Of a stretch of 64,000 bases of DNA, positions 2,904 to 7,319 are shown piece after piece. The translations under genes were made by a program, and so were the position numbers. The stretch is from Caulobacteraceae bacterium (lineage in GTDB: Bacteria; Pseudomonadota; Alphaproteobacteria; Caulobacterales; Caulobacteraceae). Positions within the stretch are counted from its first letter, which is position 1; each line of letters opens with the position of its first letter. The notes below the pieces were generated by a model that was not told where the DNA came from, did no database searches, and saw only the letters and a program-made list of their open reading frames with translations. Where the stretch lies: contig CANGCO010000001.1 of NCBI GenBank assembly GCA_947452365.1, positions 1 through 64,000 of the forward strand. Reading direction: 5' to 3'.

Positions 2904-3255
2904 GGTATTGTCCGAGCAAAATTGACGATGGTCGCCAATGGCATATTTTGTGCCGGTTGGCCCAGCCCAAACGCCCATTTCGGTATTTCAATTCGCCGCC
3001 CGGGATCATCCGGCGCGTGATCATGATGTAGGTGCAATACCCTCTGTCGCTGCGAAACCTTGAGGATCTCCTGGCTGAGCGCGGCATCGACATCTGCCAC
3101 GAGACTGTGCGGTTTTGGTCGAACCGGTTCGGGCCAATGTTCGCCGCTGAAATCCGCCGCCTTAGCTGAGTGGAAGTTGCTCATGGCCTGAGGCCAGAAG
3201 CGCCCTGCCCTTGATCCGCAAAGCGCAGACACTTTCGCATTGGTCTGACAGCACC
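2904..3255 (+). mobile_element. IS6-family-like remnant, copy 1 (internally deleted)
   Basis: The ends form an imperfect inverted repeat: GGTATTGTCCGAGCAA at 2904 against GGTGCTGTCAGACCAA read inward from 3255, 12 of 16 matching. Inside, a forward frame from TTG 2957 to TGA 3169 reads AQPKRPFRYFNSPP, then YPLSLRNLEDLLAERGID and CHETVRFWSNRFGPMFAAEI, which is the N-terminal part of IS6/IS26-type DDE transposases. It is interrupted by a TAG at 3029-3031 where the family usually has an aromatic residue. The catalytic DDE half is absent. Its left 100 bp is repeated in direct orientation at 6893. Confidence 0.85.
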
Positions 3256-3422: not shown

Positions 3423-4772
3423 CTAATCCTGGTCAAATACGACCAGGCTTTGCCGCAGGTCCGTAATTTTTGGGTTGAGAAACTGCGCGCTCACCATAGC
3501 TATCTTAGCCTCCAATGGTCGGCCCAGGCCCAAATAAGCCCTAGATATTTCTCTTAGCATGGCGGGGGTGTAAAAGCCCGCCTTGAAGCCAGCCCGCAAT
3601 ATCTTAAGGGCCGTGCCTTGCATCCCATTGCGGTTCAATGCCCGCGCATAATTAACGATCGGCGTTGAGAACGGTCGCCGGGTATACTCCTGCTTGGCCA
3701 ATACCAAGGCCTCCACCGGATCCCCATAAGCCATCAGGTGCTCTGCATAATGTGTACTATAGGCCTCAGGTAGGGCTGCAACACGTTTTTGCCAGACGAT
3801 TGTCGCGGCCCGCCGCCAATGATCAGCCTCGGTCTTATCCCCCTGCGCCTCCAGTACCCGCGTAAGTCCATCTAAGACATCAGGATTGCCCGTTCGCTGA
3901 GCCAATACTTCATAGCGGCGACGCGCCTCTTTAAGGTTGCCCTCCAGCGCAAATTGTTGGGCCAAATAGCTTTCGGCCAACCAAGACCCAGGGAAGGCAC
4001 GGTTTGCGGCCCTCACCCATCGACCAGAGGCCTCCCAATCACCACGCGAAAGCGCAATAGAGGCACGCTGAAGCTCTATCGATGAAAGGGTCGAGGGTGA
4101 GTATTTTTTCGCCCGCAAAACCTCATCAATCTCTACCATTGCAAGCGCTGTATTGCCCTGCTTTGCATAGATGTTGGCGCGACGCAGTCGAATACCGAGA
4201 TTATTACCAGTCGCGCATAAATTATATGCCTCACTCAGCCGTCCACGCTGAAAAGCAATCTCGCACTCCATGGAACGTGCCTCGTCTAGGTCTTCGATTT
4301 CCGGTGGCATGACCGAGGCGTACAAACGTCGGAGCGCTGATTGTGACAGGTCGAGCTTATGCAGATACAGAGCCTCACTTGCCCGTGAAAGCGCCGGTCC
4401 CGCGGGCCAGGGGCTAATAGCGATGGCACGGGCTAAGACTTGATCTGCTTCAATAAGGTCGCGGGTATCACCGGTCAGTCGGGCGCGCGACAGCAGGGCA
4501 TGCGACAGGCCCTCCAAATACAGCCAGTCCGAAGGAAAATAGCGAACACGCTCGCGCTTTACCGCGAGCCGACTGTCTGCACGCTGAAGGGCGTCCTCGA
4601 AGGTTTTGGGACCATAGCCTGACCGTAGGGCCGCGGGATCAATCAACGGCGCCTGGCCTATTGGCCCATACCGATTTAGCGCTATGCTGGCACAGACGAC
4701 CAAGGGAACCAGCACGCAAAGGGCAGATATCCACACGGCCTTATGAGACATATTTCCGGCGGGCTTGCCCAT
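3423..4772 (-). CDS. Membrane-anchored TPR-repeat protein
   Basis: A 449-residue protein with an N-terminal signal anchor (about residues 12-31, AVWISALCVLVPLVVCASIA) followed by tetratricopeptide-type helical repeats, for example LIEADQVLARAIAISPWPAG, RANIYAKQGNTALAMVEIDE and ALEGNLKEARRRYEVLAQRT. The repeats should face the periplasm and act as a protein-protein scaffold. ATG at 4772 is preferred: it overlaps the upstream stop as TGATG, so translation is probably coupled to the DUF4331 lipoprotein gene. An in-frame GTG lies one codon upstream. It is the last gene of a three-gene operon. Specific function unknown. Confidence 0.8.
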   Translation of the reverse strand: MGKPAGNMSHKAVWISALCVLVPLVVCASIALNRYGPIGQAPLIDPAALRSGYGPKTFEDALQRADSRLAVKRERVRYFPSDWLYLEGLSHALLSRARLTGDTRDLIEADQVLARAIAISPWPAGPALSRASEALYLHKLDLSQSALRRLYASVMPPEIEDLDEARSMECEIAFQRGRLSEAYNLCATGNNLGIRLRRANIYAKQGNTALAMVEIDEVLRAKKYSPSTLSSIELQRASIALSRGDWEASGRWVRAANRAFPGSWLAESYLAQQFALEGNLKEARRRYEVLAQRTGNPDVLDGLTRVLEAQGDKTEADHWRRAATIVWQKRVAALPEAYSTHYAEHLMAYGDPVEALVLAKQEYTRRPFSTPIVNYARALNRNGMQGTALKILRAGFKAGFYTPAMLREISRAYLGLGRPLEAKIAMVSAQFLNPKITDLRQSLVVFDQD

Positions 4773-5458
4773 CACTTATTCCGAGAACAAAGTTTTAGGC
4801 CCAGCGCGTATAGATCGTCCCCAATCGCCACATGCAACTTGTCCAGCGTGTGCACCTGTTCATCCGTATAGGTCCCCGCCATGTCCGCCGTAGGATCGGC
4901 ATCATTATAGTCTGTCTTACGGGTAGAACCGATTAAGGTGGTCGCAATAGCGGGCTGTCCCATCCTATCAATGCGAACATAGGCACTCTCCGGATCGCTC
5001 CGGAAGTCAAACCGAGTGCCGGTTGTCGCAGCCCTCATCGGGTTCCCTTGAGGTGATGCCAAATAAGGAAATTCGCTGCTAAACGGAATATCATTGCCGG
5101 GAGGATTTAAAGGCAGGTTTGCCAACGTCATTGGCCCCTGCCCGGTAACCTTGAAATCTAAAAACAAGAATGACAACAAAATATCGATCACCGGATCTTC
5201 TAGTCGTCGACCGTTTGGAAATCCGGGCGGCCGAGCTAGGTCGAGCTTCAGTGTATCCGGAACGATCAGTGTTCTTAAGGAGTTGCCGCCCGATCCGGGG
5301 ATAATTTGGTCAAAACAATTAGAAGAATCAAAGCTGGTCGGCGCTGCCGGGACGACCGGGGTTGGCGTAGCAATCGTGGTTGATCCGCCCCCGCCGCCAC
5401 AACCGGCAAGGCTCGCCGCACCGACCATGGCCAAAAGACTCCAACTAAATTTTTGCAT
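4772..5458 (-). CDS. DUF4331-like lipoprotein (C-terminal half of the family)
   Basis: A 228-residue protein with a lipoprotein signal: MQKF, a hydrophobic stretch, then LAGC (lipobox) followed by a glycine run. The mature part has the features of the C-terminal part of DUF4331 proteins: TLIVPDTLKLDL, RPPGFPNGRRLEDPVIDI and EFPYLASPQGNP. The start is ATG 5458, which overlaps the upstream stop as TGATG; an earlier in-frame start would place 12 residues before the signal peptide. DUF4331 proteins are usually one exported polypeptide. Here the family is divided over two genes, this one lipidated and its partner (5458-6114) with an ordinary signal peptide. Function unknown. Confidence 0.8.
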   Translation of the reverse strand: MQKFSWSLLAMVGAASLAGCGGGGGSTTIATPTPVVPAAPTSFDSSNCFDQIIPGSGGNSLRTLIVPDTLKLDLARPPGFPNGRRLEDPVIDILLSFLFLDFKVTGQGPMTLANLPLNPPGNDIPFSSEFPYLASPQGNPMRAATTGTRFDFRSDPESAYVRIDRMGQPAIATTLIGSTRKTDYNDADPTADMAGTYTDEQVHTLDKLHVAIGDDLYALGLKLCSRNK

Positions 5459-6114
5459 CAGATCTGCCCCCCAAATCGTGATGTCACAGCCCATATACCC
5501 AAGGGGGTCGTTGCAGTACTAAATCGCTCTTTGGGGATTTCGATAACAATTGCCGTATCGTTTGCCTTGGCGAAGAAATTCCTCGACCGGTCGAACCGGA
5601 TCAAGCCCATTGACCGGGTTTCTCGAAATCCAACCAGATCAAAAAAGAACGGCTCATCAAACATCCCGGCCCTAACCTTGACCCCGTCCTTAACAAGGTC
5701 CGTATCGACCGAACCTTCAAGCGCGCCAGTCACACCCGGAAGCCCAGCAACCCGCACGCCCCATTCATTCGCATTGGCACCGGGGCCAAACTGGGCGGTT
5801 ATAACTGTATCGGCAGTATCGGCAGGCAATGCGGAGGAGATATTAATCTTATAAAGCACATCCCGATCAAAGGCGGCGGAAGCGGTCAATGCTGCAGGTC
5901 CACCAAATGTTACGATGATGATCACCGACTTGTCAGTTTGCCATGCAAACACATCATCAATATCTGACGCAAGATCCGGCGACGCATCGACCCCGGGATC
6001 TGTCCGGCCGGGAGGGTCTAGATGATCAGCGCTAAATGTCGAAGATCCTGATAATATTCCCACAGCAAAACAAATAAACACTATTTTCAAAAATATCGGC
6101 AATTTAATCTTCAT
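5458..6114 (-). CDS. DUF4331-like exported protein (N-terminal half of the family)
   Basis: A 218-residue protein with a cleavable-looking signal peptide (LPIFLKIVFICFAVGILSG..STFS), then SADHLDPPGRTDPGVDASPD, DIDDVFAW and later FDEPFFFDLVGFRETRS, which match the N-terminal part of DUF4331 proteins. ATG at 6114 is chosen, with GGAAAA about 7 nt upstream; GTG lies one codon earlier. It is first in an operon with the DUF4331 C-half lipoprotein and the TPR protein, each junction a TGATG overlap. The two DUF4331 halves probably form one complex in the envelope. Whether the split arose by division of a single ancestral gene or is normal for this subfamily cannot be judged here. Confidence 0.8.
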   Translation of the reverse strand: MKIKLPIFLKIVFICFAVGILSGSSTFSADHLDPPGRTDPGVDASPDLASDIDDVFAWQTDKSVIIIVTFGGPAALTASAAFDRDVLYKINISSALPADTADTVITAQFGPGANANEWGVRVAGLPGVTGALEGSVDTDLVKDGVKVRAGMFDEPFFFDLVGFRETRSMGLIRFDRSRNFFAKANDTAIVIEIPKERFSTATTPLGIWAVTSRFGGQI

Positions 6115-6117
6115 CAC

Positions 6118-6892
6118 TTAATTTTCCTATAGTTTTTAAATTAACCAATTTTGTAAATGAATTGCATAATTTACCTATTGTTGATATTCTAAAAAATCAA
6201 TAATAAAATTAGCTCACGGGCCTTGATTCTAGTCAATCTACAAAAATATGATAAATCTAATTGAAAATTTTTACTAAAAATATTTTATTTAATACTAAAA
6301 TTTTAATTGATTAAAAAATCACTTTTCTTTTGTGAAAACCACCGAATTTTTAGCAATTATCGGTAAATCTTGCAACAAAAAATATATGTTAAATGACAAA
6401 CTATTAAAATATATATTCATATTTTCGGTTTTGATCTTAGTATCACCCGTTAGCGCTTCGGACATTGTGTATAAATTTGCAAAACCTTAGTTAAGTAAGT
6501 AATGCTCTGGTGATTTTACTTGTTAGAACTTCATAATGCTGAAATGATAATAAAAATAAATTTCAAAAAAATTGAATTATATTTAAAAGATAATGAGATT
6601 ATAAAGAAAAATTCAGTATTAAATAAATTTCCGACCAATTTTCGGTGTTGCAGATATTCTAAACTCGCTCAAGAATTAACCGAAAATCTATTTTCTGGAA
6701 ACTCCTATCGCGGTACGTTTACTTTAGACTGAACTACAATTTCATACAAAAAACACTCGGTGAAATAGAATTGTCCATCAATGATGGGGCGGGCGGGTTG
6801 ACGGGAATTGTTATTCCAGTCGCTGCCTTCAAATTCTGCTGATATTTCGTGCCCTCGGCCTGATCGAAATATTGGGCTTAATATTTGTCGCG
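6118..6892. other. Very AT-rich spacer upstream of the DUF4331 operon
   Basis: This stretch is strikingly AT-rich (long runs such as AAATATTTTATTTAATAC) compared with the GC-rich core. It must hold the promoter of the leftward DUF4331 operon. The only frame of note is 6520-6732 on the plus strand (70 codons, TTG start, Lys/Asn/Ile-rich), whose composition is what random AT-rich DNA would give. I do not call it a gene. The stretch ends at the second IS6-like remnant. It looks like horizontally acquired DNA. Confidence 0.6.
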
Positions 6893-7150
6893 GGTGTTGT
6901 CAGAGCAAAATTGACGACGGTCGCCAACGGCATAATCTTTAGCGGATGACCCAGCCCAAAAGCCCATTCCGGTATTTCAACTCATCGCCCGAGGTGATCG
7001 TGACCGATGGTCTAAAGTCCTACCCGGCAGCGCTGACAGAAATCGGGGCGATCGGAAAACAGGTGAATGGGCGTCGATAGAACAACAGAGTCAAGAATTC
7101 ACACCTCCCCTTCCGACGACGAGAACGCGCCATGCGCCGGTTCCGGCGGA
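6893..7150 (+). mobile_element. IS6-family-like remnant, copy 2 (internal deletion joins N- and C-terminal parts)
   Basis: The left end GGTGTTGTCAGAGCAA matches copy 1 and matches copy 1's right-end repeat at 14 of 16 positions. From ATG 6946 the frame reads MTQPKSPFRYFNSSPEV, as in copy 1, then passes directly in frame into the C-terminal DDE region (IVTDGLKSYPAALTEIG), meets TAG at 7078-7080, and continues in the same frame as NNRVKNSHLPFRRRERAMRR. The middle of the transposase is deleted. I see no right terminal repeat, so the 3' boundary is approximate. Both copies point the same way and bracket the DUF4331-TPR operon. Confidence 0.82.
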
Positions 7151-7319
7151 TGAGGTTAGGTTTTGTGCGGCCACGACCTCCAGATCACAATTCACCATTG
7201 CACACGAACGGCTCAAGGGTTCGCTGGAAGTCGGTCAGCAGGGTGGGCATGGATCTAGCAAGACAATAGGCCAATTTACGGTGTCCTCCCTACCCACTCT
7301 GTTCCCAAATGGACCTTGC

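Follow-up and report, generated by a model that had tools for sequence, protein, structure and literature searches.

A split DUF4331 operon between two IS6-family remnants

The DNA analysed here, referred to below as the window, is a 64,000-nucleotide stretch of a Caulobacteraceae genome. Its open reading frames place a minus-strand trio of genes, which we call A, B and C, at positions 3423-6114 (Table 1). As the original prediction had described, the three form an operon in which both the A/B and the B/C junctions are TGATG overlaps; a GTG at 6117 is an alternative start for A. Both A and B pass the gathering score of PF14224 (DUF4331; curated cut-off 27 bits), A over profile positions 160-236 and B in two stretches, the better of which spans 364-421, and the DUF4331 motifs that had been quoted for the locus are all found in them. 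The N-terminus of A resembles a signal peptide, C begins with a hydrophobic anchor, and the lipobox LAGC in B bears out the earlier reading of this protein as a lipoprotein. To our knowledge, DUF4331 has no assigned function, and a search of 5.39 million papers for DUF4331 by name or PF14224 by Pfam number returned no mention.

The trio does lie between two insertion sequence remnants, as had been proposed; both derive from the IS6 family and have the same orientation. The G+C content of the trio region is lower than that of the downstream DNA in the window. Upstream of A, positions 6000-7000 are very A+T-rich (27-38% G+C), and the IS6 remnant is the sole clear coding content there. On the other side, an intact-looking AMP-ligase-type gene (1410-2882), also low in G+C (48-49%), adjoins the first remnant and perhaps belongs to the same mobile island as the trio.

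Table 1. Coordinates of the trio and associated features in the window.
Feature	Position	Strand	Basis
Gene A (218 aa): exported N-terminal half of DUF4331, beta-sandwich	5458..6114	-	PF14224, 32.1 bits; 84 homologues; AF2 pLDDT 85
Gene B (228 aa): lipoprotein with the helical DUF4331 half, circularly permuted	4772..5458	-	PF14224, 49.4 bits, two stretches; two swapped domains against unpermuted-B profile
Gene C (449 aa): periplasmic TPR protein with membrane anchor	3423..4772	-	above cut-off for TPR_14 and TPR_19; homologues at the equivalent position
Predicted N-terminus of mature A, Ala-Asp-His (X-X-His, ATCUN-like)	6022..6030	-	-3/-1 rule
B residues 46-137: DUF4331 C-terminal segment (VPDTLKLDL...FPNGRRL...FPYLAS), first in order	5048..5323	-	101.2 bits to positions 122-204 of the unpermuted-B profile
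B residues 145-226: DUF4331 middle segment (YVRIDRMGQPAIATTLI...LGLKLC), second in order	4781..5026	-	84.9 bits to positions 42-121 of the unpermuted-B profile
Cys48 of B, start of permuted domain	5315..5317	-	invariant in 43 permuted B; next to its partner in unpermuted B
Cys224 of B, end of permuted domain	4787..4789	-	invariant in 43 permuted B
IS6-family transposase remnant (VQYPLSLRNLEDLLAERGIDICHETVRFW...)	~2926..3166	+	six-frame translation; family by peptide reading
IS6-family transposase remnant (VIVTDGLKSYPAALTEIGAIGKQ...NNRVKNSHLPFRRRERAM)	~6802..7170	+	six-frame translation; family by peptide reading

Conservation and transfer of the split operon

In a profile search, PF14224 matched in 18 of 149 genomes of the window's family, in single-chain as well as split forms. 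Three B proteins used as queries in a genome scan gave 80 loci from Sphingomonadales, Caulobacteraceae, Myxococcota, Planctomycetota MAGs and others. When A, B and C profiles were run on all open reading frames, 84 distinct A-B pairs emerged and A and B were separate genes in every one, a count that is uninformative on the frequency of the single-chain form, the queries of the scan having been split B proteins. C follows directly downstream of B in 69 of the 84 pairs, the window included, and lies elsewhere nearby in eight more (on the opposite strand in six, upstream in two). A soluble half A, a lipidated half B and an anchored TPR protein C recur throughout. The identity of A to its window counterpart ranges from 29 to 61% across lineages. 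Far from being confined to one strain, the combination of a split pair with a TPR gene is conserved in distant genomes, from Sphingomonadales to Myxococcota and Planctomycetota MAGs, which was a check that the original prediction had proposed. Occurrence is patchy, with B present in 22 of 296 genomes of the order Sphingomonadales and in 3 of 385 genomes of the class (the window genome among them), and with A present in one of seven genomes of the window's genus and in none of the six other members.

It could be argued that the split is simply the decay of a full-length DUF4331 gene through a frameshift near mobile elements, since IS6 remnants stand on both sides of the trio and the rest of the genus lacks it. 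However, the identical split in 84 loci, with separate export signals and a lipobox, and the start/stop overlap, which 60 of the 63 permuted pairs have kept, make this scarcely credible, and the conservation of the split leads us to reject a strain-specific decay. The overlap itself should not be read as a rule of the complex: it is frequent in pairs with a permuted B (see below) and rare in unpermuted ones (3 of 21), indicating a trait of lineage.

A sphingomonad is the probable horizontal source of the window copy, which lacks the permease discussed below. A, B and C are all closest to proteins of Novosphingobium lentum (61, 56 and 39% identity, respectively), although the genome is that of a Caulobacteraceae member, and the A tree groups the window A with that species (98/99). 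These affinities, the IS6 remnants and the lack of the trio in sister genomes together indicate transfer, toward which the lower G+C content relative to the surroundings also counts. Elsewhere in the window genome (contig C5, L124:5906-6055), a 50-residue remnant that shares 56% identity with the C-terminus of the window TPR protein reads as a decayed second copy of C.

Two complete trios stand tail to tail in the Phenylobacterium MAG G135, whereas a single trio is present in G107. Permuted and unpermuted trios lie tail to tail in one Phenylobacterium genome (L027 3026-9246 and L085 6276-11865), so that both forms of B coexist there. At L041:2088-2273, a solitary B fragment comprising the middle segment sits just upstream of A.

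Circular permutation of the lipoprotein half

Single-chain DUF4331 proteins and the window trio have segments, motifs, export and a predicted X-X-His end in common. However, the former are one chain of about 490 profile-matched residues with the order N, F (FFFD-type), M (RxGxP...) and C (PNGRR...FPYL), whereas in the window two genes share these segments and the last two are swapped. Instead of one uninterrupted domain that follows the profile from 1 to 421 in a single chain, there are two genes, and B has 364-421 before the middle segment; we therefore file the window as a split, permuted variant of the DUF4331 family. The original prediction had assigned N-terminal and C-terminal DUF4331 features to separate genes. 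The split stands, but B contains the middle segment as well, behind the C-terminal one, and rather than a plain C-terminal half it is a circular permutation.

A second kind of split operon retains the single-chain order. In Enhygromyxa, Polyangia, other Myxococcota and some Planctomycetota, as well as in the second trio of Phenylobacterium MAGs, the same three-gene unit with a lipoprotein B and an anchored TPR protein occurs. However, B there runs from lipobox and linker through M and a CxxxxC-type junction to C, in contrast to the window order of lipobox, linker, C, linker and M, and the genes usually lack the start/stop overlap. Against a profile of the unpermuted B, the window B yields two domains in swapped order (101 and 85 bits), which merge into one 181-bit domain when the protein is rotated in silico. 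The same operation on all 63 permuted B proteins, with cuts set at the profile's own domain borders, raised the score in every case, the median going from 105 to 215 bits. Pfam's own PF14224 profile also matches the B segments in swapped order in G135. B therefore has the properties of a circular permutant: a single copy of each segment, a swapped order, and a collinear alignment that rotation restores.

Could the swapped order be an alignment artefact or an internal duplication? The segments are short, at about 80-90 residues. However, exactly one copy of each is present in 63 of 63 permuted proteins, the score gain on rotation is large, the junction cysteines follow the old ends and the change has one origin on the A tree, so that we give practically no weight to this explanation. 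That tree was built from A alone and is independent of the trait, since A does not contain the B permutation. It places all 63 permuted members on one side of a single branch (100/95; recovered in all bootstrap trees), and the permutation thus arose once, in the sphingomonad/Caulobacteraceae lineage. We take the permuted order as derived because the single-chain proteins and the outer operons are both unpermuted. No permutation intermediate was found among the loci, but A-B units duplicated in tandem (L039 3916-8548 and L084 5206-9028) indicate that the duplication needed for such a change does happen. The architecture of the operon, its conservation and the permutation are well supported.

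The permutation would have brought the old C-terminal segment to the front, joined the old ends by a linker and opened the old junction. In most unpermuted B proteins a cysteine pair is nearly adjacent at this internal M-C junction, and in L100, an unpermuted B that lacks both, the two were lost together. Since these neighbouring cysteines of the old junction are found without exception at the two permuted ends, a retained disulfide is implied: the cysteines flanking the opened junction were kept, and a bond between Cys48 and Cys224 probably closes the ring of the permuted B.

The permuted B, the form that was modelled, is predicted to be mostly helical with moderate confidence (pLDDT 71), with a short strand near each cysteine-bearing end, and Foldseek found no match for it in the PDB. 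A is modelled by AF2, with good confidence, as a beta-sandwich. No Foldseek match of A in the PDB had an E-value below 0.001, and VIA-align gave Z-scores of up to 7.0 to many antibody domains; we do not take this as a sign of kinship, as the sandwich arrangement is common and the similarity generically Ig-like. Sequence searches of the PDB with A, B and the HupE partner described below returned nothing significant, and no single-chain DUF4331 relatives were found in viral contigs.

A candidate envelope complex for copper or nickel

The best explanation for these observations, to which we give an even chance of being right, is a two-chain DUF4331 envelope complex for the capture of copper or nickel. 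The exported A and the lipoprotein B represent the two portions of the single-chain form. They most likely come together again in the envelope, where the lipid of B and the anchored TPR protein C would hold the pair at the membrane. It is conceivable instead that A and B are independent proteins of one operon, the split having freed two domains that do not reassemble. The A-B interface is indeed something that we infer, and the models of A and B belong to different fold classes. However, A adjoins B in all 84 pairs, across lineages as divergent in A as noted above, and the single-chain family keeps both parts in one polypeptide, which makes independence improbable.

The case for a metal begins with the N-terminus of A. 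N-termini of the form X-X-His constitute the ATCUN motif for copper and nickel. The histidine is invariant in all 84 A proteins and the Asp before it is present in 83; by the simple -3/-1 rule, used here in place of a trained predictor, the cut that exposes X-X-His fits in 80 of 84 and a rival cut in 45. By the same reasoning the single-chain relatives would mature to Ser-Ser-His or Ser-Asp-His. The reassembled A-B pair would thus likely bind Cu2+ or Ni2+ in the periplasm through this predicted end.

The second element is a permease. HupE_UreJ_2 genes lie near the trio in 43 loci, and in all 33 with a readable start the first residue after the probable signal cleavage site is a histidine. TPR and HupE genes remain together even in rearranged operons, whether convergent or reordered, and a HupE/UreJ gene occurs within a few kb in two of the single-chain loci inspected (L033 and L035), both from Caulobacteraceae. 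A complete example is found on a Croceicoccus plasmid, where A, B, C and HupE are followed by sigma and anti-sigma genes, the annotation reading simply DUF4331, DUF4331, hypothetical, HupE/UreJ, sigma and anti-sigma. The single-chain genes of L033-L037 are directly followed by a gene for an 80-100 aa lipoprotein whose family is unassigned. Permeases of this anglerase type have lately been described, and one relative, RbAng-1a, binds Cu2+ (Kd 73.6 nM) and Ni2+ (220 nM) via its N-terminal histidine; the part of that work considered here makes no mention of DUF4331 partners (PMC12537917). The sphingomonad HupE_UreJ_2 resembles the Ang-1 HupE/UreJ-2 permeases in layout and in its mature N-terminal histidine; the window trio differs in having no adjacent permease.

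In many sphingomonads, then, an anglerase-type HupE/UreJ permease encoded in the operon would receive the metal. An operon-borne HupE_UreJ_2 with N-terminal histidine is found at many sphingomonad loci but not beside the window trio, the genome's only copy being on another contig and in another context, and clustering found no HupE beside the Myxococcota trios. Given these absences, the permease may be a regional partner outside the core function. HupE-type proteins can also serve metals other than copper and nickel. The complete version of the proposal, a previously undescribed two-chain periplasmic copper/nickel receptor with a circularly permuted chain, a disulfide-shut junction, delivery to HupE and a TPR scaffold, is tentative and, taken as a whole, rather unlikely.

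It is also possible, if doubtful, that A and B form a two-chain module for a non-metal ligand, such as a glycan, lipid or peptide, and that HupE/UreJ belongs to a wider envelope-stress regulon under the adjacent ECF sigma/RskA pair. ECF sigma and RskA-type anti-sigma genes are near the trio in 25-27 loci, mostly divergent upstream and, on the Croceicoccus plasmid, downstream in the same direction; TonB receptors are near in about 14. The sigma/RskA pair occurs in many Erythrobacteraceae loci, sometimes with a TonB receptor. The generic Ig-like similarity of the A sandwich, its only structural likeness, and the permease-free Myxococcota trios would fit such a module as well. However, this reading sits less easily with the linkage of TPR and HupE genes through operon rearrangement and with the presence of HupE/UreJ near single-chain DUF4331 loci.

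If copper or nickel capture is the correct interpretation, operon conservation, the predicted X-X-His end of A and a permease of anglerase type would together provide a first concrete, testable function for DUF4331. Permuted and unpermuted lipoproteins, sometimes in one genome, moreover offer a clean case for how a circular permutation becomes fixed in evolution.
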